Assembly: GCF_002155965.1 (NCBI RefSeq)
Contig: NZ_MUMH01000108.1
Coordinates: 1-34,922, forward strand
Reading direction: 5' to 3'
Source of the DNA: Allokutzneria sp. NRRL B-24872
Lineage (GTDB): Bacteria; Actinomycetota; Actinomycetes; Mycobacteriales; Pseudonocardiaceae
DNA length: 34,922 nt
Shown here: piece after piece, positions 5,807 through 33,833 of the stretch
Layout: the number at the start of each line of letters is the position of its first letter
Position numbering within the stretch: position 1 is the stretch's first letter
Program-made: the position numbers and the translations under genes
Notes under the pieces: model-generated
The model's database searches: none
Told to the model about the DNA's origin: nothing
What the model saw: the letters and a program-made list of their open reading frames with translations, nothing else

Positions 5807-5867
5807 CGAGCTGAAGCCTCCGCGTTGAGGTTGCGCAGTGAGGTGTCTCGCCGCCGTCGCCCCGGCG

Positions 5868-5908
5868 TGACATCGCGTCAGCACAACGGGCGCTGACATC
5901 GTTGTCAA
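5868..5908 (-). promoter_or_regulatory. Promoter and LacI-type operator candidates for the GH92 gene
   Basis: TGACATCGTTGTCA (5894-5907) is a 14-bp palindrome with a central CG and 6 of 7 symmetric pairs, the form typical of LacI-family operators. A related site, TGACATCGCGTCA, lies at 5868-5880. The first site overlaps a consensus -35 box, TTGACA, on the minus strand (plus positions 5903-5908). A weak -10 (TGTGCT) lies about 17 nt downstream. The arrangement suggests repression by a sugar-responsive LacI regulator not adjacent to this gene. Regulation is inferred. Confidence 0.45.
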
Positions 5909-5996
5909 GAAGTTCGTCCCGCCTTGTCCGAAAACATGTCCGCACCGGGAGTAAGTGCTGCTCCGAGCGTTGTAGTCCGCGTCGGCGGGGCATGAG

Positions 5997-6026
5997 TTGG
6001 GGATCGCGTTGGTCTGAAGGCAGTAT
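5997..6026 (+). promoter_or_regulatory. Possible leaderless promoter of the YibE/F gene
   Basis: TTGGGG (5997-6002) and CAGTAT (6021-6026) are spaced by 18 bp. Transcription would begin at or next to the GTG at 6033. No Shine-Dalgarno precedes that GTG, so a leaderless mRNA is plausible. The boxes are moderate matches only. Confidence 0.35.
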
Positions 6027-6032
6027 TGGGCC

Positions 6033-7643: not shown

Positions 7644-7672
7644 GCCCCCGCCAACATCATTAAGGTCGGGGT

Positions 7673-19599: not shown

Positions 19600-21807
19600 C
19601 TACCGCTCCAGCTGTCGCAGCTGCTCGCGCGCTGTCTCGGTCTGCGCGGGCACGTCGAAGTCGAGCGCGCGTTGGAAAGCGGCGCGGGCGCCCTCGGTGT
19701 CGCCCTCGTTGAGGTGGACGAGGCCGAGGTTGTTGTGGGCCAGCGCGGCCTGCTCGGGGGAGTCGGTCTCGCTCGCGCGCCGGAAAGCGTCCTCGGCGCC
19801 GCGCATGTCGCCCTGGCTGAACAAGGCGGCGCCGAGGTTGTTGAGCGCCATGGGCACCACGGTCGTGTTGCCGGAGTCCACGGCCCGGCGGTAGCACGCG
19901 ATGGCGCCGGGGAGATCGCCCTGCTCGTTGAGCAGCGTGCCGAGGTTGTTCAGCGCCAACGGTGTCCAGTGCGGGTGCCGGGCGTCGATGACCCGCCGGA
20001 ATGCGGAGCGCGCCCCGCCGACGTCGCCGGTGCGGGCGAGCAGGCCCCCGAGGTTCAGGGCGGCCTGGGGTGCCATCTCGGCGTGGCCGGAGTCGATGGC
20101 GCGTTGGAGCGCGGACCGAGCGGCGAAGTTGTCGCCGTTGCGCATGAGGAGCAGGCCGAGGTTGTTCGCGGCCATCGGGGCGTAGGACACGTGCGCGGTC
20201 GCGATGGCCCTCCAGTAGGCGGCCTGCGCGCCGTCGATGTCGCCCTGCCGTTCGAGGAACGTGCCGAGCGCGCTCATCGCGTACGGCGCGGCGTCGGCGT
20301 GCCCGGAGTCGATGGCCCGCTGGATGAACCACCGCGCGCCGGTGGTGTCGTTGAGCCGCACGTCGAGGAGGGGGCCGAGCAACGCCATCGCCCACGGCGC
20401 GTGCTCGGGGTGGCCGGAGTCGATGGCGAGCTGGTAGGCGGTACGCGCGCCCTCGACGTCGTCCTGGTAGTCGAGCAGGGAGGCCAGGTTGATGGCGGCG
20501 ACGGGGGCGAACTCGGGGTGCTCGGAGTCGATCGCCGTTTGGAAGGCGGCGTGGGCTCCGACGACATCACCGTTGTGCCCCAACAGCATCCCCAGGTTGG
20601 CCGCGGCGTGCGGGCCGAACTCGGGGTGCCGCGCGTCGATGGCGATCTCGTAAGCCCGTTGCGCGCCGGGCACATCGCCCTCCGCGGCGAGAAGGACGCC
20701 GAGGTTGACTGCGGCGTGGGCGCTGGCGTCGGGGTGACCGGAGTCGATCGCGCGCCGGTACGCGGCCTTGGCGCCGATGGTGTTGCCCTGCTTGTCGAGC
20801 GCGTAGCCGAGGTGGCTGTAGGCCCACGGCGTCAGGTCGGGGTCGCGCAGGTCGATGACGCGCTGCATGGCCGAGCGCGAGCCGGACAGGTCCCCCTGCG
20901 TGAAACGGAGGTAGCCGAGTTCGTAGAGGGCGTCGGCGAGCACGTCGGAGCCGCCCACCTCGATGACGCGGAGGTACTCGGCGATGGCGCCGTCCACGTC
21001 GCCGGCCTCGCGCAGTCGCCGCGCCTCCTCCAGGAGGTCCACAGTGGACAGTGGTGGCAGCTCGACGACGGCGCCGGAGTGCGCGGGATTGCGGGTCAGC
21101 CCGAGCAGCGCGATCGTGTCGGTGCCGCTCTGCTGCGGTCGCGGCAGGTTCCGCGCGAGCATGGCGCGCAGCAGGGGGAGGTAGAGGTCGCCGACCGGGA
21201 GCAGCGGCCCCGCGCCCTCGACTCCCTTGCGCAGCAACGTGATCAGCTCGCCGGTGAAGGCGGTGTTGCGCGCGCCGGGCGGAGCCTGTGCGGCCTGGTT
21301 GGGCGGAGCGGAGGTGAGGATGTAGGAGCCCTTGACCTGCACCTGCCCGGTGACCAGCGACTGCGCGTCGGCCATGGCGCCGATCGCGCTGCCGGAGAAG
21401 CAGCAGTCGAGCACCACGATCCGCGACTTCGCGGGGCTGCTGGTCTGCACGCGCCGCAGCGCCGAGAACGGCAGCGCGGTGGACCAGACGTGGTCGGGAT
21501 CGGTGCTCGGCAGCGCGAGGTAGAGGTCGCCGTCCTCGTCCACGAGGCCGTGCCCGGCGTAGTAGAGCAGGAGCACGTCGCTGGTGGCCCTGGCGATCTG
21601 GGTGAGCTCGCGCGCGATGCCGAGGCCGGGGTCGAGGAAGGTGTGCACGCGCGCGGGGTCGAAGCCGCCGTGCTCGGGGTGGGTGAGCAGGGCCGCGAGG
21701 TCGGCGAGGTTGTTGGCGACGGCGTCGAGCGCGTGCAGGTCGGCGTGGTGGTGGGTGGCGGTGCCGATCAGCACGGCCGAGGAGGTCAGCCGGTCGGGGA
21801 GGCGCAC
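19600..21807 (-). CDS. Caspase-like (C14) peptidase fused to 13 TPR repeats
   Basis: The product is 735 aa. Residues 1-240 are a caspase/metacaspase domain. Catalytic His86 lies in LLYYAGHGLVDEDGDLYL and catalytic Cys136 in VVLDCCFSGSA, followed by the expected SYILTSAPPNQAA segment. Residues 258-725 hold 13 tandem TPR-like helical repeats, each 35-37 aa, with consensus AxxNLGxLLxxxGDxxGAxxAYxxAIDSGHPExAP. Caspase-like peptidases with repeat sensors are proposed effectors in bacterial conflict and programmed cell death. Start GTG 21807 is 7 nt after the EACC1 stop, so the two are one operon. No separate NTPase is encoded beside it. The target protein and activating signal are unknown. Confidence 0.92.
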   Translation of the reverse strand: MRLPDRLTSSAVLIGTATHHHADLHALDAVANNLADLAALLTHPEHGGFDPARVHTFLDPGLGIARELTQIARATSDVLLLYYAGHGLVDEDGDLYLALPSTDPDHVWSTALPFSALRRVQTSSPAKSRIVVLDCCFSGSAIGAMADAQSLVTGQVQVKGSYILTSAPPNQAAQAPPGARNTAFTGELITLLRKGVEGAGPLLPVGDLYLPLLRAMLARNLPRPQQSGTDTIALLGLTRNPAHSGAVVELPPLSTVDLLEEARRLREAGDVDGAIAEYLRVIEVGGSDVLADALYELGYLRFTQGDLSGSRSAMQRVIDLRDPDLTPWAYSHLGYALDKQGNTIGAKAAYRRAIDSGHPDASAHAAVNLGVLLAAEGDVPGAQRAYEIAIDARHPEFGPHAAANLGMLLGHNGDVVGAHAAFQTAIDSEHPEFAPVAAINLASLLDYQDDVEGARTAYQLAIDSGHPEHAPWAMALLGPLLDVRLNDTTGARWFIQRAIDSGHADAAPYAMSALGTFLERQGDIDGAQAAYWRAIATAHVSYAPMAANNLGLLLMRNGDNFAARSALQRAIDSGHAEMAPQAALNLGGLLARTGDVGGARSAFRRVIDARHPHWTPLALNNLGTLLNEQGDLPGAIACYRRAVDSGNTTVVPMALNNLGAALFSQGDMRGAEDAFRRASETDSPEQAALAHNNLGLVHLNEGDTEGARAAFQRALDFDVPAQTETAREQLRQLER
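19633..21036 (-). repeat. Tandem ~108-bp coding repeats (13 TPR units)
   Basis: Residues 258-725 of the caspase protein are 13 back-to-back units. Eleven are exactly 36 aa, one is 35 and one is 37 (the DVRLNDTTG unit). Phrases such as GHPE, AIDSG and NLGxLL recur at DNA level, with repeated 'gtggccggagtcgatggc'-like words every 108 bp. Such arrays can gain or lose units by recombination. Confidence 0.8.
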
Positions 21808-21814
21808 GGCGGCG

Positions 21815-22201
21815 CTACTCGGCGTCGGGGGCCCGCTCGGCGCTGCGGTCGGCCTGCTCGATGCTGCGGTAGGCCAGCCCCACCGCGCCCGACGCGGGCA
21901 GTCCGTTGATCTTCAGCGAGGTCTCGCCGTCCGGGGTGCGGATGGTGACCTCCACGTTGGCCCTGCGCTGCCGCAGCCAGGTCTTGACCGCGCTGCGGAG
22001 CACGGCCATGCCGTTGGCGGACACCAGCAGCAGGATCGTGTCGGCCAGCGCGCCCATCTCGCCCTCGGCGGGGACGGCGGGAGCCAGCCTCGGCGTCTCC
22101 AGGTCGTCCTCGCGCAGCAGCCAGCCCAGCAGCGAGCGCAGCTCCGCGGCGGCGTCGCCATCGTCGCCGCCGTCCGTGACGGTGATCTTGACCTGCTCCA
22201 C
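21815..22201 (-). CDS. EACC1-like effector-associated constant component
   Basis: The product is 128 aa. It opens with a beta strand (VKITVTDGG), then a helix (LRSLLGWLLRED). The signature stretch is AEGEMGALADTILLLVSANG, a hydrophobic helix, followed by a helix ending WLRQRR and a beta hairpin VEVTIRTPDGETSLKING. This order (PxxGEMGALAD, hydrophobic helix, WLRxRR, VTxRxxDG) matches the EACC1 family, the invariant partner in modular actinobacterial effector systems that include caspase-like peptidases. The assignment is from remembered family pattern, not a search. GTG 22201 has AGGGGG about 8 nt upstream. It is the first gene of the operon with the caspase-TPR gene 7 nt downstream. The mechanism of EACC1 is not established. 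Confidence 0.78.
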   Translation of the reverse strand: MEQVKITVTDGGDDGDAAAELRSLLGWLLREDDLETPRLAPAVPAEGEMGALADTILLLVSANGMAVLRSAVKTWLRQRRANVEVTIRTPDGETSLKINGLPASGAVGLAYRSIEQADRSAERAPDAE

Positions 22202-22339: not shown

Positions 22340-22353
22340 TGTAAAGGTTTCCA
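22340..22353. promoter_or_regulatory. LacI-family operator candidate O1
   Basis: TGTAAAGGTTTCCA closely matches the downstream site O2 (one base different) and the general LacI-family form with A/T-rich half sites around a central dyad. It lies 59 nt before the LacI-regulator GTG. Confidence 0.6.
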
Positions 22354-22373
22354 GCGCACCGCCCGACGCGGAC

Positions 22374-22387
22374 TGTAAACGTTTCCA
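22374..22387. promoter_or_regulatory. LacI-family operator candidate O2
   Basis: TGTAAACGTTTCCA has a central CG dyad and near-symmetric halves (GTAAAC and GTTTCC), a classic LacI-family operator shape. Its centre is 34 bp from that of O1, about three helical turns, so two dimers could bind the same face. It is 24 nt upstream of the regulator start and is the best candidate for control of the importer-glycohydrolase operon. Confidence 0.7.
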
Positions 22388-22411
22388 GGAGGGGTCGGGA
22401 GCGGAGGCGGA

Positions 22412-23425
22412 GTGACGAGCGCGGACAGCGGACCTGCGACGATCGAGACGATCGCGCGGCGGGCGGGCGTGTCCATCGCCTCGGTCTCCCGGGTGCTCAA
22501 CGGGCTCGGCGGACGGCCGGACACGGTGCGCAAGGTCCAGGCCGCGGCCACCGAGCTCGGGTACGTGCCCAACGCCATGGCGCGGTCGCTGCGCGGGGGT
22601 CGCTCCGGGCAGATCGCCTTCGCCATGGAGGACATCGGCAACCCGGTCTACGTCGCGATGGTGCGGCGCATCCAGGCGGTGGCCAAGGAAGCGGGCTACC
22701 GGTTGCTGCTGCACTCCACCGGGGCCGACCGCGAGGAGGAGCTGCGCGCGCTGCGCAGCCTGGCCGACCGGCACACCGAGGGCCTGATCATCTCGCCGAT
22801 CCGGATCACCCGCGAGCACCTCGACGAGCTGAGCCGGGCGGTGGCGCCGGTGGTGGTGATCGGGTCGCTTCCGGAGGGCGTGCGACTGGACAACGTGCGC
22901 GTGGACTCGCGGGTCGGGGCCGCGATGGCGGTGGCGCACCTGGTCGGCATCGGGCGCAGGCGGATCGGTTTCCTCAACGGCCCCTTGGACACCGTGCCCG
23001 GTCAGGCCCGCTACAAGGGCTACCTGGACGGCCTCGCCACCGCCGGGCTCGACGGCGCGGAGCTGGTGGAGTCCGGGCAGTTCCAGACGGATTCCGGTGC
23101 CGAGGCGGCGAAGCGGCTGCTGGAGCGCGTTCCCGATCTTGACGGCCTGTTCTGCGCCAACGACCTGATCGCGGTCGGGGCGCTGCGGGCACTGCGGGAG
23201 GCGGGTCGCCGCGTCCCGGACGACGTGGCGGTGGTCGGCATGGACGACACCGAACTGGCACGCGTCACCTGGCCGACCCTGACCAGCGTGGGGCTGGGGT
23301 CGGCGCGGCGCGGGGAGCTCGCGGCAGAGCTGCTCGTCGACCGGCTCGGGGAGGGCCGGGACCGCGAACCGAGGTGGGTGTCGGTGACACCCGAACTTGT
23401 CGCGCGAGAGTCCACCCGCTCGTAG
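22412..23425 (+). CDS. LacI family transcriptional regulator
   Basis: The product is 337 aa. The N-terminal helix-turn-helix ATIETIARRAGVSIASVSRVLNG (residues 9-31) and hinge region (YVPNAMARSLRGGRS) are typical. The rest is a periplasmic-binding-protein-like effector domain with GQIAFAMEDIGNPVY, DGLFCANDLIAVGALRALREAG and VPDDVAVVGMDDTELA. It should sense a sugar or glycoside and repress the operon downstream. GTG 22412 is preceded by GGAGG (22403-22407). The two operator-like sites directly upstream suggest autoregulation. The importer genes start 16 nt after its stop. Confidence 0.95.
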   Translation: MTSADSGPATIETIARRAGVSIASVSRVLNGLGGRPDTVRKVQAAATELGYVPNAMARSLRGGRSGQIAFAMEDIGNPVYVAMVRRIQAVAKEAGYRLLLHSTGADREEELRALRSLADRHTEGLIISPIRITREHLDELSRAVAPVVVIGSLPEGVRLDNVRVDSRVGAAMAVAHLVGIGRRRIGFLNGPLDTVPGQARYKGYLDGLATAGLDGAELVESGQFQTDSGAEAAKRLLERVPDLDGLFCANDLIAVGALRALREAGRRVPDDVAVVGMDDTELARVTWPTLTSVGLGSARRGELAAELLVDRLGEGRDREPRWVSVTPELVARESTRS

Positions 23426-23441
23426 GAAGGCATCCCCGCCG

Positions 23442-24347
23442 ATGACCGTGCTGGCCGTGCGCAGGAAGGGCCCGTTGGGGCTGGAGCGCGACGCCTGGTT
23501 CCTGGTTCTGCCCGTGCTGATCCCGATCCTGCTGCTCAGCGTCGGTCCGCTGGTCTACGGCCTGCTGCTGGGCTTCACCAACGCCAGCTTCGGCCGCGAG
23601 TCGGTCACGGCGGTCACCGGCGTTGACAACTACGCCGACCTGGCCAGGGATTCGCTGTTCTGGGCCTCCTTCAAGATCGGCCTCATCTGGGCGGTCGTGG
23701 TGACGGCGTTGCAGTTCGTGCTGTCGCTCGGCTTGGCGTTGCTGCTCAACCAGAACCTGCGCCTGCGGTGGCTGGCGCGCACGCTCGCGCTGGTGCCGTG
23801 GGCGATGCCGGAGGTCGTCGTCGGCATCATGTGGCGGCTGGTCTACCACTCCGACGCGGGCGTGCTGAACCACACGCTGCGCGACGTGGGTCTGCTTGAG
23901 GACAACGTGGACTGGCTGGCCACCTTCGGCATGGCGCTGCCCGCCGTGATCGTGGTCGGCGTGTGGGCCGGGATGCCGCAGACCACCGTGACCCTGTTGG
24001 CGGGCCTGCAGAACGTGCCGAAGACGCTGCACGAGGCCGCCGCGATCGACGGAGCCGGGCCGCTGCGCCGGTTCTGGGTGGTGACCTGGCCGTCGCTGCG
24101 CCCGGTGGTCACGGCGATCACGGCACTGAACTTCATCTGGAACTTCAACTCCTTCGGCCTGGTCTACGTGCTGACGCAGGGCGGCCCGGGCGGCGAGACA
24201 CGGCTGCCGATGCTCTTCGCCTACGAGGAAGCCTTCAAGTACGGCCAGTTCGGCTACGCCGCCGCGATGGGCTCGGTGATGGTCGCGGTGATCGCGGTCT
24301 TCCTCGCGGTGTACCTGCGCTCGCGGCTGAAGGAGGTCGACCAGTGA
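23442..24347 (+). CDS. CUT1 ABC transporter permease (MalF-like)
   Basis: The product is 301 aa, an inner-membrane permease of a carbohydrate importer. It has about six membrane helices, starting WFLVLPVLIPILLLSVGPLVYG, and the cytoplasmic EAA loop EAAAIDGAGPLRRFWVVTWP that contacts the ATPase. LTQGGPGGETR is typical of MalF/UgpA-type subunits. The ATG at 23442 has AGGAAGG upstream and gives the usual short cytoplasmic N-terminus. No ATP-binding subunit is encoded in the window; actinobacterial CUT1 importers commonly share a multitask ATPase of the MsiK kind. It overlaps the second permease by GTGA. Confidence 0.95.
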   Translation: MTVLAVRRKGPLGLERDAWFLVLPVLIPILLLSVGPLVYGLLLGFTNASFGRESVTAVTGVDNYADLARDSLFWASFKIGLIWAVVVTALQFVLSLGLALLLNQNLRLRWLARTLALVPWAMPEVVVGIMWRLVYHSDAGVLNHTLRDVGLLEDNVDWLATFGMALPAVIVVGVWAGMPQTTVTLLAGLQNVPKTLHEAAAIDGAGPLRRFWVVTWPSLRPVVTAITALNFIWNFNSFGLVYVLTQGGPGGETRLPMLFAYEEAFKYGQFGYAAAMGSVMVAVIAVFLAVYLRSRLKEVDQ

Positions 24348-25162
24348 AGCGGACGGCCCAGTACTTCGCGTTGATCTGTTACCTCGTCTTTCTCGGATTT
24401 CCCCTGGTGTGGTTGGTTTCCACCGCCTTCAAGGGGCCGCGCGAGCTGGCGTCGATCGATCCGACCTGGATTCCGCGCGAGGCCACCACGGCGAACTTCA
24501 TCACGGCGTTCACCGAGCAGCCGTTGGTGCAGGCCGGGATGAACAGCCTCACGGTCGCGGTGACCTCGTCGCTGATCACGATGGTGCTCGCGGTGCCCGC
24601 CGCCTACGTGCTCGCGCGCTACCGCTCGACGCTGACCAGGCTCACCACGGGCTGGATCCTCGTCAGCCAGATGTTCCCGTTCGTTCTGGTGATCATCCCG
24701 CTGTTCCTGCTGCTGAAGAGCTTCTACCTGGTGGACTCGCAGGCCGGGCTGATCATGGTCTACGTGGTGTGGAACCTGCCCTTCACGCTCTGGATGCTCC
24801 AGGGCTACGTCCGCGCGATCCCGCCGGAGCTGGAGGAAGCCGCCTCCGTCGACGGCGCTTCGAAGGGAAGGGCGTTGTGGCACATCGTCTTCCCGTTGCT
24901 CACGCCCGGGCTGGTGGCGACGGTGATGTTCTCCTTCATCAGCGCGTGGAACGAGTTCTTCTTCGCGCTGGTGCTGCTGAAGACGCCGGAGAAGCAGACG
25001 CTCCCCGTGCTGCTGACCCGCTTCCTCGGTGCTGAGGGCGTCGCCGACCTCGGCCCGCTGGCCGCCGCGGCGCTGCTGACCACGATCCCGAGCCTGCTGT
25101 TCTTCATGTTCATCCAGCGCCGGTTGACCGCCGGCATGCTCACAGGGGCGGTGAAGGGATGA
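24344..25162 (+). CDS. CUT1 ABC transporter permease (MalG-like)
   Basis: The product is 272 aa. Helices start at residue 7 (YFALICYLVFLGFPLVWLVS). The EAA loop is EEAASVDGASKGRALWHIVFP. ISAWNEFFFALVLL and PLAAAALLTTIP are typical of the MalG/LacG/UgpE family. It pairs with the preceding permease. GTG 24344 has AGGAGG (24331-24336) at ideal spacing and overlaps the previous stop by 4 nt. Its own stop overlaps the binding-protein start by ATGA. Confidence 0.95.
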   Translation: MKRTAQYFALICYLVFLGFPLVWLVSTAFKGPRELASIDPTWIPREATTANFITAFTEQPLVQAGMNSLTVAVTSSLITMVLAVPAAYVLARYRSTLTRLTTGWILVSQMFPFVLVIIPLFLLLKSFYLVDSQAGLIMVYVVWNLPFTLWMLQGYVRAIPPELEEAASVDGASKGRALWHIVFPLLTPGLVATVMFSFISAWNEFFFALVLLKTPEKQTLPVLLTRFLGAEGVADLGPLAAAALLTTIPSLLFFMFIQRRLTAGMLTGAVKG

Positions 25163-26436
25163 AGCGCCTGGTGCTCCTGCTGGTGCTCGCGCTCGTCGGG
25201 TGCTCGACCGCGCCGAAGTCCGACGTGGTGAAGCTGCGGTTCCTCAGCCTGGCCTGGCAGAAGGAATCCGTGGCGGTGAACAAGCAGATCGTCGCCGAGT
25301 GGAACCGGACGCACCCCAAGGTGCAGGTGGAGTACGTCCCGGGCAGCTGGGACAGCATCCACGACCAGCTCCTCACCTCCTTCGCCGGTGGCGAGGCGGC
25401 GGATGTCATCCACAACTCCTCCGACGACCTCTCCGAGTTCGCCCACGGCGGCTACCTCGCCGACCTGACCACGTTGTTGCCGCCCGGTTTGAAGGCCGAC
25501 ATCCCGGACGCCACCTGGGAGACGACGCGCTTCAAGCAGGGCGTCTACGGGGTGCCGTTCCTCCAGGAGCCCAAGGTGATCCTGGCCAACCGCGCGCTGC
25601 TCACCCAGGCGGGCGTGCGCGTCCCGACCCCGGACAGGCCGTGGAGCTGGGACGAGTTCGCCGAGATCAGCAAGAAGCTGACCAAGGACACCAGCGGTGA
25701 CGGCAAGGCCGACCAGTACGGCTTCGCGTGGCCGATGAAACAGCCCGTCAGCACGATGCTCAACCTCGCGCTGAACTTCGACGGGAAGTTCTTCTACCCG
25801 CAGGACGGCAAGCTGCTCGCCACCGTCGGACCGGCCGAACGTGAAGTGCTGCAACGGGTTCACGCGCAGCTGCACACAGACGGCTCCGCGGCGCCCGGCG
25901 CGCTGGGCATGAGCGGATCGGACTCGTTGCCCGGATTCTTCGCGGGCAAGTACGCGATGGTCTTCCTCGGTCTGTCCTACCGGCAGCAGATGCGCCAGCA
26001 GGCGCCGAAGGGCTTCGACTGGGTGACGCTGCCGCCGCTCACCGGGACCGGGCCGGAGCAGGGCGTCAGCCCGCAGACGCTGTCGATCTCCGAGGACAGC
26101 CCGCACAAGCGCGAGGCGATGGAGTTCATCGACTACCTGGTGAACCCGACCAACACCGCGCGTTTGGCGTTGGGCGACTGGATGTTGCCGACCAGCACGA
26201 GGGCATTGGCGGCGCCGGAGCTGAACGTGGAGCAGTTCGGGTGGAAGGTCGGCGTCGCGGCGGGCGCCTCGCTGCGGACCTCGCCGTCGCAGCGCGTGCG
26301 CGGCTACGCGGAGTGGAAGGACAAGATCGCCACTCCGGCCTTCCAGCAGTACTTCCGCAACCAGATCAGCATCGACGAGCTGAGCCGGAAACTGACCGAG
26401 GACGGGAACCGAGTGCTGGCCAGGTACCAACGATGA
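25159..26436 (+). CDS. ABC transporter solute-binding lipoprotein (family 1)
   Basis: The product is 425 aa. The signal MKRLVLLLVLALVGC ends in a lipobox with lipidated Cys15, so it is tethered to the outer face of the membrane. The body has MalE-type features: VVKLRFLSLAWQ, NRTHPKVQVEYVPGSWDSIHDQL, AADVIHNSSDDLSEFAHGGYLADLT, GVYGVPFLQEPKVILANRALL and KREAMEFIDYLVNP. It captures the imported ligand. MalE-type (CUT1) binding proteins usually take glycosides or oligosaccharides rather than free ribose, which uses CUT2 systems. This fits import of a ribosylated compound (inference). It is coupled by ATGA at both ends. Confidence 0.94.
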   Translation: MKRLVLLLVLALVGCSTAPKSDVVKLRFLSLAWQKESVAVNKQIVAEWNRTHPKVQVEYVPGSWDSIHDQLLTSFAGGEAADVIHNSSDDLSEFAHGGYLADLTTLLPPGLKADIPDATWETTRFKQGVYGVPFLQEPKVILANRALLTQAGVRVPTPDRPWSWDEFAEISKKLTKDTSGDGKADQYGFAWPMKQPVSTMLNLALNFDGKFFYPQDGKLLATVGPAEREVLQRVHAQLHTDGSAAPGALGMSGSDSLPGFFAGKYAMVFLGLSYRQQMRQQAPKGFDWVTLPPLTGTGPEQGVSPQTLSISEDSPHKREAMEFIDYLVNPTNTARLALGDWMLPTSTRALAAPELNVEQFGWKVGVAAGASLRTSPSQRVRGYAEWKDKIATPAFQQYFRNQISIDELSRKLTEDGNRVLARYQR

Positions 26437-28454
26437 CGGCCGAGAAAGCACGCGGCGCGCTGCTCGGGCTCGCGGTCGGCGACGCGCTCGGCGCACCGGC
26501 GGAGAACCTGTCGCGCGCGGAGATCGCCCGGCGCTGGGGTCGCGTGGAGGGCTTCGTCTCCGACGACCCGGTCGGCACCGACGACACCGAGTACGCGGTG
26601 TTCTCCGCGCTGCTGCTCATCAAGCACGGCGCGGCGCTCTCACCCGCCGACGTGGAGAAGGCGTGGCGGGAGTCCATTGTGGACCAACCGCTCAAGGGTG
26701 CCGGGTTCAGCGAGCGCGGCACGGTGGAGAACCTCCAGCACGGGTTCTCCGCCCCGCTCAGCGCCCAGCACCGGCATGCGTGGAGCGACGGCCTCGCCAT
26801 GCGCGCAGCGCCGTTCGGCGTGTTCGCGGCAGGGGACCCCGCCGAGGCCGCGCGCCTGGTCGCGGTGGACGGCTCGATCAGCCACGAGGGCGAGGGCGTC
26901 CTGGGCGGTCAGGCCGTCGCGGGCGCGGTGGCCGCGGCCATGGGCGGGGCGACGCTGAAGGACTCGATCTCCGCTGGTCTCGCGGTGATCCCGGAGGACT
27001 CCTGGACCTCGCGAGCCATTCGCAGAGCCGTTGCGGCGCAAGCGGAAGAGGAGATCCTGGACGCGGTGGTCGTGCGCGACTACCCGTGGACCGACCTCGC
27101 GCCGGAGGCCGTCGCGCTGGCCTTCGGAGCCCTTGAGCTGGCGGGCGGCGATGTCCGCGCCTCGATCCTGACCGCGGTGAACATGGGCCGCGACGCGGAC
27201 ACCACGGCGGCCATCGCGGGGGCGATCGCTGGCGCGCTCAACGGGGAATCAGCCGTTCCCGCCGAGTGGGTCGAGCAGATCGGGCCGGTGCGGGGTGCCT
27301 GCATCAGCGCCGTCGCCGGGCACCACATCGCCACCGTGGCGACCGAACTGCACGCCGCGCCACGCGATCGTGTGTCCACGCCGCAGCCCGTGCGCGAAGT
27401 GGCCTCGCTGCCCGTTCGCCACGTGCGCGGGAAGACGCGGGGCGGGAGCGTGGTCGGCGCGCTGATGGGCCTCGCGGTCGGTGATGCGCTCGGCTGGCCC
27501 GCCGCGAAGCACCGCGCGGGGCTGCTGCCCGCGTGGACCCGTCGCCTGGCAAGGGAACTGGACACCTTCGCCGAGGAGCACGGGGTGAGCAGCCTGCCCG
27601 TGCCGATGGCGTTGAACCAGCCGACCGCCGCGCTCCGGCTCGGCCCGTCCGACGACGCCGAGTGGGCCGTTTTCGCCGCGCTGGCGGGAACGGGCGGAGC
27701 CGACGCGGTGCGCTCCGCGTGGATCGAGCTGGCCGAGTACAAGCGCCCCGTCTCCGCGCGGATCTCCGTGCGCGCGGGGCTGGCGAACCTGGCCGCCGGG
27801 CTGCGCCCGCCCGCGAGCGGCCACGACAACCCGCACTTCTTCGACGACGCGGCCTGCGCTCGCGCCGTCGGGCTGGCGACGTTGTGCCCGGGCGATCCGG
27901 CCGCCGCCGCCGAGCTGGCCGAGGTCGACGCGCGGCACACCCAGGACGGCGACGGCGTGCTCGGAGCGCGGGCGATGGCCGCGGCGATCTCCTCGGCGCT
28001 CGGCGGAGCGAGCCCGGCCGAAGCCGTGGACGCCGCGCTGCTGGAGCTGCCGGACGGGACGGAGATCGGCCGCAACGCGCGCCGCGCTGTCCACTATGGA
28101 CGGCACAGCGACACGTTCAGCCTGATCCCGTTGCTGGAGAACGGGGTCGTCGACCACGTGTACAGCTACGGCACCGCGGCCGCGGAGACCGTTCCGGTCG
28201 CGCTGGCGCTCGTGCTGGCATCCGGAGCGCGCTTGGGCGAGGCGGTCTCGGCCGCCGCGTGCCTGTCCCGGCTGGCCGACTCCGCGCCCGCGCTGACCGG
28301 CGCGCTCGCCGGAGCCCTGTCCGGGTCACAGTCCGGGGACGTGCCGATGACCTGGCGGGCGAGCTGCCGCGAACTGCGCGGCACGAGCCTGCCGTGGCTG
28401 GCCGGAACGGATCTCATCGACCTCGCGGGCCGCATCTCCGCCCGCGGCAACTGA
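26433..28454 (+). CDS. Tandem two-domain ADP-ribosylglycohydrolase family protein
   Basis: The product is 673 aa with two ARH/DraG-type domains in a row. Domain 1 (about 1-310) has GLAVGDALG (12-20), the metal-binding T49-D-D-T52 and NMGRDADTTAAIAGAIAGAL, whose Asp254, Asp256 and Thr257 complete the two-metal site. Domain 2 (about 338-673) has GLAVGDALG again (346-354). However, its first metal motif is S406-D-D-A, and the last is S612-R-L-A-D616-S, so one metal aspartate is replaced by Leu. Domain 1 looks catalytic; domain 2 is probably weakened or structural. ARH enzymes hydrolyse alpha-linked ADP-ribose or related ribosyl bonds. The start is ATG 26433, overlapping the binding-protein stop. 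Confidence 0.88.
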   Translation: MTAEKARGALLGLAVGDALGAPAENLSRAEIARRWGRVEGFVSDDPVGTDDTEYAVFSALLLIKHGAALSPADVEKAWRESIVDQPLKGAGFSERGTVENLQHGFSAPLSAQHRHAWSDGLAMRAAPFGVFAAGDPAEAARLVAVDGSISHEGEGVLGGQAVAGAVAAAMGGATLKDSISAGLAVIPEDSWTSRAIRRAVAAQAEEEILDAVVVRDYPWTDLAPEAVALAFGALELAGGDVRASILTAVNMGRDADTTAAIAGAIAGALNGESAVPAEWVEQIGPVRGACISAVAGHHIATVATELHAAPRDRVSTPQPVREVASLPVRHVRGKTRGGSVVGALMGLAVGDALGWPAAKHRAGLLPAWTRRLARELDTFAEEHGVSSLPVPMALNQPTAALRLGPSDDAEWAVFAALAGTGGADAVRSAWIELAEYKRPVSARISVRAGLANLAAGLRPPASGHDNPHFFDDAACARAVGLATLCPGDPAAAAELAEVDARHTQDGDGVLGARAMAAAISSALGGASPAEAVDAALLELPDGTEIGRNARRAVHYGRHSDTFSLIPLLENGVVDHVYSYGTAAAETVPVALALVLASGARLGEAVSAAACLSRLADSAPALTGALAGALSGSQSGDVPMTWRASCRELRGTSLPWLAGTDLIDLAGRISARGN

Positions 28455-28470
28455 AGGAGGAGAAGGAGCA

Positions 28471-29619
28471 GTGTCGAAACCCCTGGAGGACCGCGCCAAG
28501 GGCTGCCTGGTCGGGGCCGCCGTCGGAGACGCGCTCGGCGGACCCGCCGAGGGCTGGACGCCGGAGGACCTGATCGAGCGCTACGGCGGTCGCATCCAGG
28601 GGATCGTGCCGCCGTTCTACGAGAACTGGCGCGACGCGCGGCCGATCGCGCCGTACCACAAGGGCGACGGCAACGTCACCGACGACACCCTGATGACCCA
28701 CGCGCTGGTCCGGGTCTACACCAAGGTGCGCGACCACATCGACGCCTACTCCATCGCCGAGCACCTGGTGCCCGAGCTGATCGGGACCAAGGTCTGGATT
28801 CCCGAGCTGGAGGCGGAAGCCCTTCCGCTGCAACGCATCTTCCTCGCCGAGAAGTGGATCGTGGCGCGACTGCACTACGGGCACGTCGACCCGCGTGAAG
28901 CCGGGGTCGGCAACATCGTCAACTGCGGCGCCGCGATGTACATGGCGCCGGTCGGCGTGGTCAACGCGGGCAACCCGGACGCCGCCTACGCCGAGGCGAT
29001 CGAGGTCGCCGGGCCGCACCAGTCCAGCTACGGCAGGGAAGCAGCCGCGGTCTTCGCCGCCGGTGTCGCATCCGCGTTCCGCCCGGAGTCCACAGTGGAC
29101 ACCGTAGTCGCGGACTGCGTCCGGCTGGCCAAGGACGGCACCCGCGCGGCGATCGAGTCGGTGTGCGAGGTCGCGTCCAAGCACGACGACTGGGAAGCCG
29201 CGATCCCCGCGCTGCGCGACGCCGTCGAGCCCTTCGACACGGTCGGCCCGGAGTACCGCAAGCCCGGCCTCGGCGCGCGCAGGCCCAGCAGGCTGCACTC
29301 GATCGAAGAGCTGCCGATCGCGCTCGGCATGCTGGTGGTGGCGCGCGGCGACACGCGGGGCACGATCCTCGGCGGGGTCAACTACGGCCGTGACTGCGAC
29401 TCGATCGCGAGCATGGGTGGCGCGATCTCCGGCGCGCTCAACGGGATCGACGACGTGCCTGCGGACTGGCGGGAGCGCGTGGCTACGGCCAGCAAGCTCG
29501 ACCTGGAGGCTCCGGCGGTGGAGCTGGCCGAGGTCGCCCGCGAGATCTTCGACCGCGACGTGCGCCGTCGCCGCGAGCACGAGGACGCCTTCCGCGTGCT
29601 CCTCGCCGGGCGGGCGTGA
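28471..29619 (+). CDS. ADP-ribosylglycohydrolase family protein
   Basis: The product is 382 aa with a single ARH domain. CLVGAAVGDALGGPAEG (12-28), GNVTDDTLMT (T70, D71, D72, T73) and NYGRDCDSIASMGGAISGAL (D308, D310, S311) give a complete set of metal ligands. An insert of about 90 residues between them (PELIGTKVWIPELEAEALPLQ and onward) may shape substrate choice. The C-terminus is a charged helix. GTG 28471 has a strong Shine-Dalgarno (AAGGAG at 28463-28468), the only clear ribosome-binding site at a gap within the downstream half of the operon. It is 16 nt after the tandem ARH gene, and the next ARH overlaps its stop. Confidence 0.92.
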   Translation: MSKPLEDRAKGCLVGAAVGDALGGPAEGWTPEDLIERYGGRIQGIVPPFYENWRDARPIAPYHKGDGNVTDDTLMTHALVRVYTKVRDHIDAYSIAEHLVPELIGTKVWIPELEAEALPLQRIFLAEKWIVARLHYGHVDPREAGVGNIVNCGAAMYMAPVGVVNAGNPDAAYAEAIEVAGPHQSSYGREAAAVFAAGVASAFRPESTVDTVVADCVRLAKDGTRAAIESVCEVASKHDDWEAAIPALRDAVEPFDTVGPEYRKPGLGARRPSRLHSIEELPIALGMLVVARGDTRGTILGGVNYGRDCDSIASMGGAISGALNGIDDVPADWRERVATASKLDLEAPAVELAEVAREIFDRDVRRRREHEDAFRVLLAGRA

Positions 29620-30965
29620 TGCGCCTGTCCTGGGTGCAGCCCGAGGACCTCGTGGGTCACGAGCTGCGCCAGGCCGAGGAGGACGGCCGCGACGCGAAGA
29701 CCGTGGCGCGTCGGTGGCTCGCCGCTGGCGGGGAGCTGAGCCCGGCTCTCGCGGGGGCTTCGACGGAGCGCGCTTCGGCTGAGCTGCGGGCGTTGGCAGG
29801 GGAGTTGCTGGACGAGCTGGCGCTGTTGCCCGGCGCGGCGGGCCCGACGGATCTCGCTGAGATCAAGTCGCAGTGTCCACAGTGGATGGACGAGTGCGGC
29901 TCGCGTGCTCCGTCGTTGGACTCGGTGCACGGCGCCTGGCTCGGTCGAGCCGTGGGTTGCCTGCTCGGCAAGCCGGTGGAGAAGATCCCGCGCATCGGGA
30001 TCGAGGAGATCGCCCGTGCCACCGGCAACTGGCCGATCCAACGCTACTTCACCGAGATCGGGCTCTCCGAGGCGATCGCGGCGCGGTGGCCGTGGAACCG
30101 CCGCAGCAGGCCGACGAGCCTCATCGAGAACATCGACGGCATGCCGGAGGACGACGACCTCAACTACCCGTTGCTCGCGCTGATGCTGCTGGAACGCAGG
30201 GGCTTCGGGTTCACCACCGATGATGTCGCCGACCTGTGGCTCGCCGAGCTGCCCGCCGGGCGGACGTTCACGGCCGAGCGCATCGCGTACCGGAACCTGT
30301 TGCTGGGCCACTCTCCGCCGGATACGGCGAGCTACCGCAACCCGTTCCGCGAGTGGATCGGCGCGCAGATCCGGGCCGATCTGTTCGGGTGGATCAACGC
30401 CGGAAGGCCGGGCGTCGCGGCCGAGATGGCATGGCGCGACGCGGTGCTCAGCCACACCGCCAACGGCGTGTACGGCGCGATGTTCGTCGCCGCAGCGGTT
30501 TCCGCCGCTGCCGTGCTGGAGGAGCCCGTGCAGTGGCTGGAGGCGGGCCTCTCCGTGGTGCCTGCCCAGTCCCGGCTCGCCGTCGCGGTGCGGCATGCAA
30601 TCGTTGCTGCACAAGAAGAATCCAACTGGAGTCGTGTTCTCGACCGGATCTACGACCACAACGGGCACCTGCACTGGGTGCACGCGGTCAACAACTCCGC
30701 GCTCGTCGCGGCGGCGGTCGTGCACGGCGGCGGTGACTTCGAAGCATCGATCTGCAGAGTCGTCGCCGGTGGCTGGGACACCGATTCCAACGGTGCGACA
30801 GTCGGTTCGCTGCTCGGCGTGCGGCTCGGCGCGGCGGCGCTGCCGGAGAGCTGGACGGCTCCGCTGAAGAACCGGCTCGCGACGAGCGTCGGCGGGATGG
30901 ACGGCATCGGGTTCGACGAGCTCGCCGCACGGACGGTCGCCGTTGCCGGGAAGGGGAAGCGATGA
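29619..30965 (+). CDS. ADP-ribosylglycohydrolase family protein with N-terminal extension
   Basis: The product is 448 aa. Residues 1 to about 100 are an unrecognised helical extension. The ARH domain starts HGAWLGRAVGCLLGKPVEKIP. The first metal motif is E177-DDD-LNY rather than TDDT, and the second is AGGWDTDSNGATVGSLLG (D387, D389, S390). The DDDLNY/DTDSNGAT combination defines a distinct ARH subgroup, so its substrate probably differs from the other two. The start is ATG 29619, overlapping the previous TGA; GTG 29616 is equally possible. It overlaps the kinase gene by ATGA. Confidence 0.88.
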   Translation: MRLSWVQPEDLVGHELRQAEEDGRDAKTVARRWLAAGGELSPALAGASTERASAELRALAGELLDELALLPGAAGPTDLAEIKSQCPQWMDECGSRAPSLDSVHGAWLGRAVGCLLGKPVEKIPRIGIEEIARATGNWPIQRYFTEIGLSEAIAARWPWNRRSRPTSLIENIDGMPEDDDLNYPLLALMLLERRGFGFTTDDVADLWLAELPAGRTFTAERIAYRNLLLGHSPPDTASYRNPFREWIGAQIRADLFGWINAGRPGVAAEMAWRDAVLSHTANGVYGAMFVAAAVSAAAVLEEPVQWLEAGLSVVPAQSRLAVAVRHAIVAAQEESNWSRVLDRIYDHNGHLHWVHAVNNSALVAAAVVHGGGDFEASICRVVAGGWDTDSNGATVGSLLGVRLGAAALPESWTAPLKNRLATSVGGMDGIGFDELAARTVAVAGKGKR

Positions 30966-31858
30966 TCGTCGTTCTTGGCAGCGCGAGCATGGACCTGACG
31001 ACCTACGTCGCGGTCGCGCCCGCGCTCGGCGAAACCGTGATGGGGCGCGAGTTCCGCACGGTCCCCGGTGGCAAGGGCGCCAACCAGGCCATCGCAGCTG
31101 CGCGGGCCGGCGGTCGCGTCGCGATGATCGGCGCGGTCGGCGACGACTCGTTCGGCGAGCCGGTGCGACGTACGCTCGCGGAGTCCGGAGTGGACGTTGC
31201 CGGAGTGCGCACCGTGCCCGGGCCGACCGGCACCGCGCACATCGTGGTGGACGACAGCGGCGGCAACTCGATCGTCGTGGTGCCCTCCGCCAACGCGACG
31301 ATCACCGGAACCGAGGACGGCGACGCCGAGCGGATCGCCGCCGCCGACTTCCTGCTGTTGCAGCTCGAAGCGCCGCTGTCCGCCGCGATCGCGGGCGCCG
31401 AGGTGGCCAGGGCCAATGGCACGACGGTCGTGCTCACCCCGGCGCCGACCCAGGACCTCCCGGGCGCACTTCTGTCCAATGTGGACGTCATCGTGCCGAA
31501 CGAGCACGAGGCACGAGCGCTGTCCGGAGTGGACGATCTGGACAAGACGATCGACTGGCTGCTGGAGCGGGTTCCCGTCGCGGTCGTGACCCTCGGCGAG
31601 CAGGGCTGCCTCTACGCGGCGCGCGGCGAGACCCCGGTCCGCGTGCCCTCCTTCGCGGTGACCGCCGTGGACACCACGGCCGCCGGAGACACGTTCGTCG
31701 GCGCGCTCGCGGTGGCGCTGGGCGAGAAGAAGCCGGTTGCCGAGGCGCTGACCTGGGCGAGCGCTGCGGCAGCGCTGGCGGTCCAGCGGCCGGGCGCGTC
31801 CAGTTCGATGCCCGCGCGCGCTGAGATCGAAGCGTTGGTCGAGGAGGGGCAGCGATGA
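30962..31858 (+). CDS. Ribokinase-like PfkB family sugar kinase
   Basis: The product is 298 aa. Ribokinase signatures appear in order: GSASMDLTTYV (N-terminal sugar contact), PGGKGANQA (35-43), N180-E (NEHEA), VTLGEQG (209-215) and the catalytic DTTAAGDTFVGAL with Asp243 as base. The pattern matches ribokinase better than fructokinase or adenosine kinase. It would make ribose 5-phosphate from ribose released by the glycohydrolases. It is coupled by ATGA to the ARH before it and to the CoA-transferase after it. The symbol rbsK would be reasonable but is withheld, as the true substrate is unproven. Confidence 0.88.
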   Translation: MIVVLGSASMDLTTYVAVAPALGETVMGREFRTVPGGKGANQAIAAARAGGRVAMIGAVGDDSFGEPVRRTLAESGVDVAGVRTVPGPTGTAHIVVDDSGGNSIVVVPSANATITGTEDGDAERIAAADFLLLQLEAPLSAAIAGAEVARANGTTVVLTPAPTQDLPGALLSNVDVIVPNEHEARALSGVDDLDKTIDWLLERVPVAVVTLGEQGCLYAARGETPVRVPSFAVTAVDTTAAGDTFVGALAVALGEKKPVAEALTWASAAAALAVQRPGASSSMPARAEIEALVEEGQR

Positions 31859-33042
31859 CCGGACCACTTGACGGACTTCGGGTCCTGGACATGTCCACCC
31901 TGTTCGCGGGGCCGCTCGCGGCGACCCTGCTCGGCGACTTCGGCGCCGAGGTGATCAAGGTCGAGCACCCGCGCAGGCCCGATCCCTCGCGCGGCCACGG
32001 CCCGGCCAAGGACGGCGTCGGCCTGTGGTGGAAGCTGCTGGGCCGCAACAAGAAGACCACAACGATCGATCTGTCCTCAACGGACGGTCAAGACCTGGTG
32101 CTCAAGCTGGTCGAGACGTGCGACGTGGTGATCGAGAACTTCCGTCCCGGCACGTTGGAGCGCTGGAACCTCGGCTACGACAGGCTTTCCGAGGTCAACC
32201 CCGGCCTGGTGCTGGCGCGGGTCACCGGCTTCGGCCAGTTCGGCCCGTCCGCGCGCCGCGCCGGGTTCGGCACGCTGGCCGAGGCGATGAGCGGGTTCGC
32301 CGCGATCACCGGCGAGCCGGACGGGCCGCCCACGCTGCCGCCGTTCGGGCTCGCCGACTCGATCAGCGCGCTGACCACGGCGTACGCGGTGATGGCCGCG
32401 CTGAACGGGCGCGCGAACACCGGCAAGGGCCAGGTCGTGGATCTCGCGATCATCGAGCCGATCCTGACCGTGCTCGGACCGCAGCCCATCTGGTACGACC
32501 AGCTCGGCTACGTGCAGCCGCGCACCGGCAACCGGTCGATGAACACCGCGCCCCGCAACACCTATCGGACCTCCGACGACAAGTGGGTCGCCGTGTCCAC
32601 GTCCGCGCAGAGCATCGCCGAGCGCGTCATGCGGCTCGTCGGCCGCGAGGACCTGATCGAGCAGCCGTGGTTCGCCTCCGGAGTGCAGCGCGCCGCGCAC
32701 GCCGACGTCCTCGACGAGGCTGTCGGCGGGTGGATCGCCAAGCACACCCGCGATGAGGTGATGGCGGAGTTCGAGCGCGCTGAGGCCGCCGTCGCGCCGA
32801 TCTACGACGTGCGCGACGTGCTGGAGGACCCGCAGTACGAGGCGCTCGGCACGTTGCAGCGCGTGCCCGATCCCGAGCTTGGCTCCGTGCTCATGCAGAA
32901 CGTCCTCTTCCGGCTCTCCGAGACGCCCGGCGAGATCCGTTGGGCGGGCCGACCGCACGGCGCCGACACCGACGAAGTGCTTGGCGGGCTTGGTCTTTCC
33001 TCGTCGGAGATCGCCACTCTACGGGAACGAGGTGTGGTGTGA
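31855..33042 (+). CDS. Class III (CaiB/BaiF) CoA-transferase
   Basis: The product is 395 aa. The family layout is clear: LDGLRVLDMSTLFAGP at the N-terminus, EVIKVEHP, ENFRPGTLERWNLGY, and catalytic Asp168 in FGLADSISALTTAYAV. GKGQVVDLAIIEP and PRNTYRTSDDKWVAVS follow. Class III enzymes move CoA between carboxylic acids through an aspartyl-CoA anhydride. The acid substrate is not predictable. Its position between the kinase and a CitE-type lyase suggests activation of a carboxylate aglycone or breakdown product. It overlaps both neighbours by 4 nt. Confidence 0.93.
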   Translation: MTGPLDGLRVLDMSTLFAGPLAATLLGDFGAEVIKVEHPRRPDPSRGHGPAKDGVGLWWKLLGRNKKTTTIDLSSTDGQDLVLKLVETCDVVIENFRPGTLERWNLGYDRLSEVNPGLVLARVTGFGQFGPSARRAGFGTLAEAMSGFAAITGEPDGPPTLPPFGLADSISALTTAYAVMAALNGRANTGKGQVVDLAIIEPILTVLGPQPIWYDQLGYVQPRTGNRSMNTAPRNTYRTSDDKWVAVSTSAQSIAERVMRLVGREDLIEQPWFASGVQRAAHADVLDEAVGGWIAKHTRDEVMAEFERAEAAVAPIYDVRDVLEDPQYEALGTLQRVPDPELGSVLMQNVLFRLSETPGEIRWAGRPHGADTDEVLGGLGLSSSEIATLRERGVV

Positions 33043-33833
33043 TCACGTGGCTTTACGTCCCCGCCGACCGGCCTGATCGAGTGGTGAAGGCGTTCGCGTC
33101 CGGTGCTGACGTGGTGATCGTCGACCTTGAGGACGCGGTCGCCCCGGAGCGCAAGTCCTACGCCCGTGACGCCGCGAAGGACCTGCTGTCCTCGCCAACG
33201 CCGGTGCCGGTTCACGTGCGGGTCAACGCGTTGGACGGGCCGCTGGCTTCGGCTGACCTGGCCGCCCTCGTCGGATTGCCCGGCGTGAGCGGGTTGCGGT
33301 TGCCGAAGGTCGACGATCCCCTTGTGGTGCACCGTGTTGCGGCGCAGGCGCCCGGCTTGGCATTGGTGCCGCTGCTGGAGTCCGCGCTCGGTGTGGAGCG
33401 GGCGTTCGAGATCGCCTCCGCCGGTGTCACCGGAATCGCGTTGGGGGAGGCCGACCTCTCCGCCGACCTCGGAGTGTCCACTGAGGATGGTCTGACGTGG
33501 GCGCGCAGCCGCGTCGTCCTCGCCGCGCGGGCCGCCGGGCTCCCTCCTCCCGCGCAGTCGGTCTACACCAACGTCCGCGACCTCGAAGGGCTGCGCCGCT
33601 CCTGCGAACGCGGTCGCGCGCTGGGCTTCCTCGGACGCGCCGCGATCCACCCCGCGCAGTTGGAGATCATCGCTCACGCGTACCGGCCCACGGAGGCCGA
33701 GCTGGCCCGAGCCCGCGAGATCGTCGAGGCCGCCGTCACCGACGCTGGCGCGCTCGCGCTTCCCGACGGCCGCTTCGTCGACGCCGCACTGGTCGAAGGT
33801 GCCCGCCGCACGCTTTCCGTTGCAGGAGAATAA
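33039..33833 (+). CDS. CitE-like (HpcH/HpaI family) acyl-CoA lyase
   Basis: The product is 264 aa. LYVPADRPDRVVKAFASGADVVIVDLEDAVAP is the CitE-type opening. Also present are RVNALDGPL, Glu114 in PLLES, the metal-binding GEADLSADLG (136-145) and GRAAIHPAQ (199-207). Members cleave malyl-, citramalyl- or related beta-hydroxyacyl-CoA into acetyl-CoA plus an oxo acid. It would act after the CoA-transferase. No citF or citD is nearby, so it is not a citrate lyase complex. GTG 33039 overlaps the transferase stop by GTGA. The last gene of the coupled block ends with TAA. Confidence 0.9.
   Translation: MITWLYVPADRPDRVVKAFASGADVVIVDLEDAVAPERKSYARDAAKDLLSSPTPVPVHVRVNALDGPLASADLAALVGLPGVSGLRLPKVDDPLVVHRVAAQAPGLALVPLLESALGVERAFEIASAGVTGIALGEADLSADLGVSTEDGLTWARSRVVLAARAAGLPPPAQSVYTNVRDLEGLRRSCERGRALGFLGRAAIHPAQLEIIAHAYRPTEAELARAREIVEAAVTDAGALALPDGRFVDAALVEGARRTLSVAGE

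Follow-up and report, generated by a model that had tools for sequence, protein, structure and literature searches.

We analysed a stretch of 34,922 nucleotides from Allokutzneria sp. NRRL B-24872 (contig NZ_MUMH01000108.1, positions 1 to 34,922; hereafter the window), which carries ten genes on the + strand, from the start of a LacI-family regulator gene at 22412 to the end of a CitE-type lyase gene at 33833, with zero internal stops. We read the set as a probable sugar-catabolic operon whose glycosidases come from an unusual family; they are encoded by three ADP-ribosylglycohydrolase (ARH) genes which are named ARHa, ARHb and ARHc in their order in the window. Families were assigned by Pfam and NCBIfam models. 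The features of the operon are the following:

22373–22388, no strand assigned: probable LacI operator CTGTAAACGTTTCCAG, with the core AAACGTTT at 22377–22384
22412–23425, + strand: LacI-family regulator (PF00356, PF13377)
23442–24347, + strand: ABC importer permease 1, MalF/UgpA type (PF00528)
24344–25162, + strand: ABC importer permease 2, MalG/GlcU type (Pfam and NCBIfam matches)
25159–26436, + strand: solute-binding protein, lipoprotein-type (PF01547; lipobox LVGC found by eye)
26433–28454, + strand: ARHa, with two ARH domains (two PF03747 stretches)
28471–29619, + strand: ARHb, an ARH protein (one PF03747 stretch; TDDT and RDxDS motifs)
29616–30965, + strand: ARHc, an ARH protein (one PF03747 stretch; EDDDL and WDTDS; additional N-terminal region, about 100 residues long)
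30962–31858, + strand: ribokinase (TIGR02152, above cut-off)
31855–33042, + strand: class III (CaiB) CoA-transferase (PF02515, 404 bits)
33039–33833, + strand: CitE-type beta-hydroxyacyl-CoA lyase (family matches; conserved catalytic residues)

The first-pass annotation of this DNA had placed nine genes after the LacI gene on one strand, and their positions and strands were recovered; Pfam and NCBIfam agree with the families it had proposed (a CUT1 importer, three ARH proteins, a kinase, a CoA-transferase and a CitE lyase). Of the nine junctions, seven are 4-nt overlaps and two are 16-nt gaps (between LacI and permease 1, and between ARHa and ARHb), as had been described; the further exception reported, a GTGATG overlap, becomes an ordinary 4-nt GTGA overlap if ARHc starts at the GTG at 29616. 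No hydratase is included, as had also been noted; itaconyl-CoA hydratase is absent from the ten genes.

We consider it somewhat probable that this is a LacI-repressed catabolic operon, and that its substrate is a beta-hydroxy di- or tricarboxylic acid conjugated to ribofuranose, taken up from outside. The binding protein and the two permeases, with an ATPase from elsewhere in the genome, would import the conjugate; the metal-dependent ARHs would act as intracellular glycosidases, and not as ADP-ribosyl hydrolases, releasing D-ribose and the free acid. The kinase, judging by its family, would convert ribose to ribose 5-phosphate. The CoA-transferase would activate the acid, and the CitE-type lyase would split the resulting beta-hydroxyacyl-CoA, giving acetyl-CoA and an oxo acid; both steps are suggested by family membership and conserved catalytic residues. 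The acid could be linked via its hydroxyl (a glycoside) or its carboxyl (a glycosyl ester), and the alpha anomer would be favoured for the ribose linkage, alpha-linked ribose being the form on which the characterised ARH enzymes act. The catabolic reading is well supported by gene context and recurrence, and a ribosyl acid as the substrate is an educated guess. Methanopterin, cobalamin riboside and opines were weighed as substrates and set aside, as they did not fit the lyase chemistry or had no evidence for them. No description of this pathway was found in the literature searched by titles and abstract openings, which left subscription papers mostly outside.

The conservation of the gene set supports a catabolic function. 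Named genomes were scanned with ARHc, which gave at least 573 relatives among at least 591 candidate stretches, and the best 80 loci were kept; ARHc was the query and is present in these by construction, and some loci end at contig ends. ARHb is found in all 80 loci and the CoA-transferase and lyase (together, the acid pair) in 79, the exception being locus L107; with the gene order also kept, the set is beyond chance. LacI and the importer are each found in 17 of the 80. The core set recurs in Jiangellaceae, Streptomyces, Micromonosporaceae and Nonomuraea, where by eye the borders of the cluster are constant while the flanks vary, and it is found rearranged on Rhizobiales plasmids. The first-pass annotation had stated that a lack of conservation outside close relatives would speak against it; this was checked, and the core was found in several families. 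In a sample of 396 genomes from the phylum, ARHc matches of at least 463.8 bits occur in ten, the window's genome among them, and the same ten match the Sinorhizobium ARHb with at least 279 bits; the next ARHb match has 42 bits. ARHb is present in 150 of 199 Streptomyces genomes. Its distribution is patchy in the wider kin of the window, where 6 of 60 genomes have it (counting that of the window); this points to transfer or loss. Where DNA was unannotated, genes were called with a simple codon-position score, and these calls are rough.

Copies of the ARH genes also occur outside the clusters. A species of the window's genus contains a second ARHb copy (88% identity; L235, 9597–10742), separate from its full cluster and with no other gene of the set in the 20 kb examined. 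Four Streptomyces genomes (L127–L130) contain an ARHc-like paralogue (44–48%) outside the cluster, with no ARHb, kinase or CoA-transferase nearby; in three of them there is a weak lyase match 5 kb away.

Concerning regulation, the operator core AAACGTTT sits 28–35 nt ahead of the LacI start in the window. It is found ahead of LacI in all 18 LacI-bearing loci among L038–L117 and L126, and in all four clusters of further relatives (L234, L236, L237 and L238), that is, in 22 of 22 other actinobacterial LacI-bearing clusters. In 2.25 Mb of locus DNA there are 32 such sites, 29 of which lie within 375 nt upstream of LacI, with LacI starts estimated from alignments. Based on these sequences, CTGTAAACGTTTCCAG is the probable LacI operator, and the earlier proposal of LacI control is backed by its conservation.

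All three ARH proteins belong to the ARH/DraG superfamily, with PF03747 above its cut-off in ARHb, in ARHc and in two stretches of ARHa. The AlphaFold2 models have a mean pLDDT of 81.6 (ARHb) and 86.0 (ARHc), and the best PDB structure matches of both are MJ1187, DraG and ARH3; the 50 matches listed also include a Thermus ARH-related protein, a toxin/immunity pair and a subunit of the FtsHi motor complex. Residues 109–149 of the ARHb model are of low confidence, and no inference about an ADP pocket was drawn from it. The metal ligands are kept in the N-terminal half of ARHa (TDDT/RDADT, 71 of 71 rows), in ARHb (TDDT and RDxDS, 82 of 82) and, as EDDD and WDTDS variants, in ARHc (82 of 82). From these motifs, three of the ARH domains are probably active and one is degenerate. 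ARHa is split in 66 and fused in 4 of 70 cases, a call which rests on the reading frame alone. At best, the proteins score 78.2 with the DraG model (TIGR02662, cut-off 337) and 59.6 with the Tri1 model (NF041672, cut-off 490), and so stay below both.

The Streptomyces cluster sits between gltB and the lgt-trp genes (named by eye). Based on this position, on the trp numbering in PMC5036795 and on the gene count, the cluster of Streptomyces coelicolor is probably SCO2028–SCO2033. In PMC9411070, SCO2028, SCO2029, SCO2030 and SCO2031 are given as uncharacterised DraG/ARH homologues, among eight ARH homologues listed; PMC5087735 counts seven DraG-like and three macrodomain proteins in S. coelicolor, taken to suggest ‘a lively ADP-ribosylation metabolism’. 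Both the family and the fold of the ARHs, together with the listing of these probable counterparts as putative ADP-ribosyl hydrolases (PMC9411070, PMC5087735), would agree with proteins which reverse the ADP-ribosylation of proteins or nucleic acids and are placed in a transport operon for regulation. We consider this unlikely: Pfam and NCBIfam recognise no ADP-ribosyltransferase among the ten genes, the acid pair adjoins ARHb and ARHc in 79 of the 80 best loci, distant ARHs also adjoin importers, and, according to PMC13036486, SCO2028 and SCO2030 have no detectable activity on uracil-linked ADP-ribose (U-alpha-ADPr), one substrate only. This last result fits a role outside ADP-ribosylation and gives it weak support.

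The importer is of the CUT1 type, with an SBP_bac_1 binding protein and two MalFG-type permeases in the operon and MsiK/UgpC-type ATPase candidates elsewhere. The ATPase gene is not in the operon; in actinobacteria an importer ATPase encoded apart from the operon is usual. Elsewhere, the genome contains places 54–55% identical to Sinorhizobium UgpC, and such a distant UgpC-like ATPase is a candidate partner of this importer. In Streptomyces, L070 and L086 contain LacI, the importer and the ARH genes at the gltB/lgt site (neighbours named by eye), and L200 contains the importer alone at the site where others carry the ARH cluster. We read the pattern in this genus as losses from an ancestor with the complete set; an importer only loosely coupled to the other genes would give the same picture. 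Near the lone importers (L196–L199 and L201–L213) no common catabolic enzyme which could give a clue to the substrate was recognised by eye; several of these copies adjoin a glycosyltransferase-like gene (by eye). The same loci bear on the possibility that the Streptomyces set serves the housekeeping or repair of an internal metabolite and that import was added later elsewhere. In its favour, 55 of the 80 loci have ARHa, ARHb, ARHc and the acid pair with no LacI or importer in the stretch examined, and ARHb is widespread in the genus as given above; it is nevertheless very unlikely in our view, as LacI-importer versions occupy the same site in other Streptomyces (L070, L086) and the importer left alone in L200 suggests loss and not gain.

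The kinase scores 304.6 bits with TIGR02152 (cut-off 299.65) and 272.7 with the other ribokinase model, PRK11142, below its cut-off of 341; the GGKGANQA and AGD motifs are present in 48 of 48 rows. A ribokinase in the set would also be expected in the catabolism of ordinary or modified nucleosides, with the ARHs as N-ribohydrolases and the acid pair handling the base product. BMP-family importers are known to take up nucleosides, and one distant ARH adjoins such an importer. We regard nucleosides as quite unlikely substrates, however: the importer of the window is of the carbohydrate (MalFG) type, the set contains no base-degrading enzyme, a CoA-transferase/lyase pair is unsuited to nucleobases, and nucleosides are beta-linked, an anomer on which the tested human ADP-ribosyl hydrolases are inactive (PMC13036486). 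A known role of ARHs in deoxyribonucleoside catabolism was considered and dropped, as a term search of PMC6365646 gave no mention of ADP-ribosyl.

A different furanose or an oligosaccharide, for example an arabinofuranosyl compound or a mixed glycan bearing an ester-linked hydroxy-acid, the acid being a mere substituent, must also be weighed. Each actinobacterial cluster contains two to four ARH domains, a distant ARH adjoins a galactonate dehydratase, and the binding protein, which has weak matches to PDB sequences (best 6wpm and 6rjy), weakly matches an arabino-oligosaccharide binder in the latter; these matches were too weak to name a ligand, and that attempt was dropped. Three relatives possess an extra gene of about 650 residues, which is absent in the window: it lies between the kinase and the CoA-transferase in L234 (12085–14028) and L238 (about 5235–7250), and stands in the place of the kinase in L237 (11948–13906). 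The two of these proteins which were scanned (L234, L237) have an FGE/SUMF1-type C-terminal domain and an N-terminal half with no Pfam match, and that half is glycosidase-barrel-like by eye only. Such a substrate would accommodate these features, but it too seems improbable to us: the kinase is above the ribokinase cut-off with its motifs kept, and one Rhizobiales operon (L120) contains a single ARH.

In the reading which we favour, ribose conjugated to an acid, the acid pair would process the acid. Asp168 of the CoA-transferase, which we take to be the catalytic residue, is invariant in 87 of 87 rows, and Arg61, Glu114 and Asp139 of the lyase are invariant in 86 of 86, including in both cases background rows from loci without ARHs. 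The three lyase residues align with Arg64, Glu112 and Asp138 of Rv2498c and correspond to the Mg ligands (Glu and Asp) and the Arg near the hydroxyl of CitE-type enzymes. The best NCBIfam model of the lyase is that of the citramalyl-CoA lyase RipC (NF038242), at 164 bits, below the cut-off of 375. According to PMC6689899, its CitE-type relative Rv2498c cleaves (S)-citramalyl-CoA and (R)-3-hydroxy-3-methylglutaryl-CoA (HMG-CoA), acts weakly on malyl-CoA and does not use (S)-citryl-CoA. Near kin of the window CoA-transferase adjoin CitE lyases, an HMG-CoA lyase, PrpD/PrpF-type proteins and an SLC13 permease. In view of these contexts and of the substrates of Rv2498c, the best guess for the acid is a beta-hydroxy di- or tricarboxylate similar to malate, citramalate, 3-hydroxy-3-methylglutarate (HMG) or citrate.

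Outside the actinobacteria, the plasmids of Sinorhizobium sp. B11 and Ensifer sp. PDNC004 (L121 and L123) contain LacI, the importer, ARHb (44% and 42% identical to that of the window, respectively), a second ARH of about 700 residues, an ATPase, the CoA-transferase and the lyase. Their CoA-transferases group with copies in stand-alone acid-uptake modules, apart from the actinobacterial copies, and a single clade for the 15 ARH-linked CoA-transferases among 24 rows was rejected (p-AU 7.7e-5). This tree was the second, made after the first had been seen, with background rows chosen from search hits, and long-branch warnings were given in both. The rejection implies at least two separate entries of the acid pair into ARH operons, or a replacement of the pair. 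In a third lineage (L239), ARHb (66%) stands directly before a LarA racemase (549.8, cut-off 460; malate-racemase models are below their cut-offs); an importer and genes for a UPF0261 and a PEP_hydrolase-family protein are found within 10 kb. The pairing of ARHs with hydroxy-acid enzymes has recurred, because the Rhizobiaceae acid pair is separate and the third lineage has a LarA-type enzyme; the acid arm which had been proposed gains support from both. On the sugar side, among the Rhizobiales operons which likewise contain LacI, the importer, ARHb, a second ARH and an ATPase, that of Agrobacterium (L119) has a ribokinase in place of the acid pair and L171 (divergent) also contains a ribokinase; in Deinococcus the ribokinase is flanked by two ARHs. 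Of six further ARH-bearing plasmid loci, four adjoin importer parts of the sugar or nucleoside type.

ARH proteins of about 700 residues are encoded in L121 (11129–13228), L125 (10076–12178) and L215 (7971–10106). The C-terminal halves of the two which were scanned (L121 and L125) have no Pfam match and look by eye like a beta-sandwich carbohydrate-binding domain. The Deinococcus operon L125 also encodes, between the binding protein and the ARH, a hypothetical protein of 370 residues with no Pfam match (6697–7809).

A number of observations weigh against the import and cleavage of a ribosyl conjugate. Of the 199 Streptomyces genomes, 134 encode the binding protein, 109 of them with ARHb and 25 without (41 genomes contain ARHb alone and 24 neither); the association of the two is weak (OR 2.6, p 0.008, with kinship uncorrected and some assemblies fragmented). 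Most Streptomyces clusters contain neither the importer nor LacI, and many copies of the binding protein stand alone. The Rhizobiales permeases and binding protein are only about 21–32% identical to those of the window, so the substrates may differ. The operator core was not found in nine more distant LacI-bearing loci (L118–L125 and L171), nor in Streptomyces clusters without LacI, and the operator thus belongs to the actinobacterial version. The ribokinase is present in 43 and missing from 37 of the 80 best ARHc loci, and the kinase of the window has a Ser at a position, presumably near the sugar site, which is Asn in 47 of 48 aligned rows. The acid pair is missing from the Nonomuraea locus and from five of the seven Rhizobiales ARHb operons (L118, L119, L120, L122 and L171), three of which (L118, L120 and L122) are also without an intact adjoining ribokinase.

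The ARHs themselves raise further points of this kind. In the C-terminal half of ARHa (SDDA and mostly V or L-ADS) the DDA is kept and the first Asp of the DxD is missing in 74 of 74 rows, so this half seems to have been maintained as a domain without catalytic function; all four ARH domains of the first-pass annotation were recovered as PF03747 stretches, and this one is without one metal ligand. The negative result with SCO2028 and SCO2030 is weak as support, because human ARH3 is only slightly active on the same substrate (PMC13036486). In the literature searched, no paper was found for six names of ribosyl hydroxy-acids, and no riboside activity of an ARH was found by titles and abstract openings. 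The riboside catabolic system put forward in the first-pass annotation stands in part: it agrees with the conservation, the LacI operator and the acid arm, and is at odds with the loose tie of the importer in Streptomyces and the degenerate ARH domain.

On either side of the operon there are other genes. A cytochrome P450 gene starts at 33891, 57 nt past the lyase, and leaves the window at 34922; no P450 was seen next to other clusters among the flanks listed by eye, and it was not counted as part of the operon, as the flanks vary among genomes outside Streptomyces (by eye). Next to the operon, on the − strand (19603–22201), lie genes for a caspase-domain (Peptidase_C14) protein rich in TPR repeats and for a small EACC1 (Effector Associated Constant Component 1) protein; as a pair they resemble a bacterial conflict system.

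The presence of ARH proteins is usually read as a sign of ADP-ribosylation signalling. We tentatively raise, as a possibility that falls short of even odds, that a large branch of the ARH superfamily consists of catabolic glycosidases for common, undescribed soil alpha-ribofuranosides or ribosyl esters of hydroxy di- and tricarboxylic acids, and that four of the eight presumed ARH-type ADP-ribosyl hydrolases of S. coelicolor belong here and not to ADP-ribosylation. If SCO2028–SCO2031 were nutrient glycosidases, as the proposed synteny would have it, the ARH count of S. coelicolor would be halved and the superfamily would gain a new chemistry. The presence of ARHb in about three-quarters of the Streptomyces genomes sampled means that the substrate should be common in soil, despite the lack of papers for the six names; the model is open to direct testing in a laboratory strain.

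Four known systems resemble the operon in part. In the RipC-type itaconate system, too, a CitE-type lyase comes after a class III CoA-transferase; the set of the window differs in having no hydratase, a low RipC score and linkage to sugar genes. Stand-alone hydroxy-acid modules, which contain both acid enzymes as in the window and are close kin of the Rhizobiaceae copies, consist of an ABC or TctABC importer, a CoA-transferase and a CoA ester lyase, with a hydroxyacid dehydrogenase and RraA in three of four; they have no ARH or ribokinase in the stretches examined and, judged by their importers, probably take up the acid itself. DraG, ARH1, ARH3 and MJ1187 have the fold and metal ligands in common with the window ARHs, whereas the latter sit in an importer, kinase and acid operon, score far under the DraG and Tri1 cut-offs and include one conserved degenerate domain as well as, in ARHc, an EDDD motif and an extra N-terminal region; their probable S. 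coelicolor counterparts are inactive on U-alpha-ADPr (PMC13036486). The rbs ribose operons, finally, contain a LacI-family regulator (the best model of the window's regulator is RbsR, below its cut-off), an importer and a ribokinase as in the window, which differs from them in its MalFG-type importer in place of RbsABC and in the addition of ARH glycohydrolases and an acid arm.

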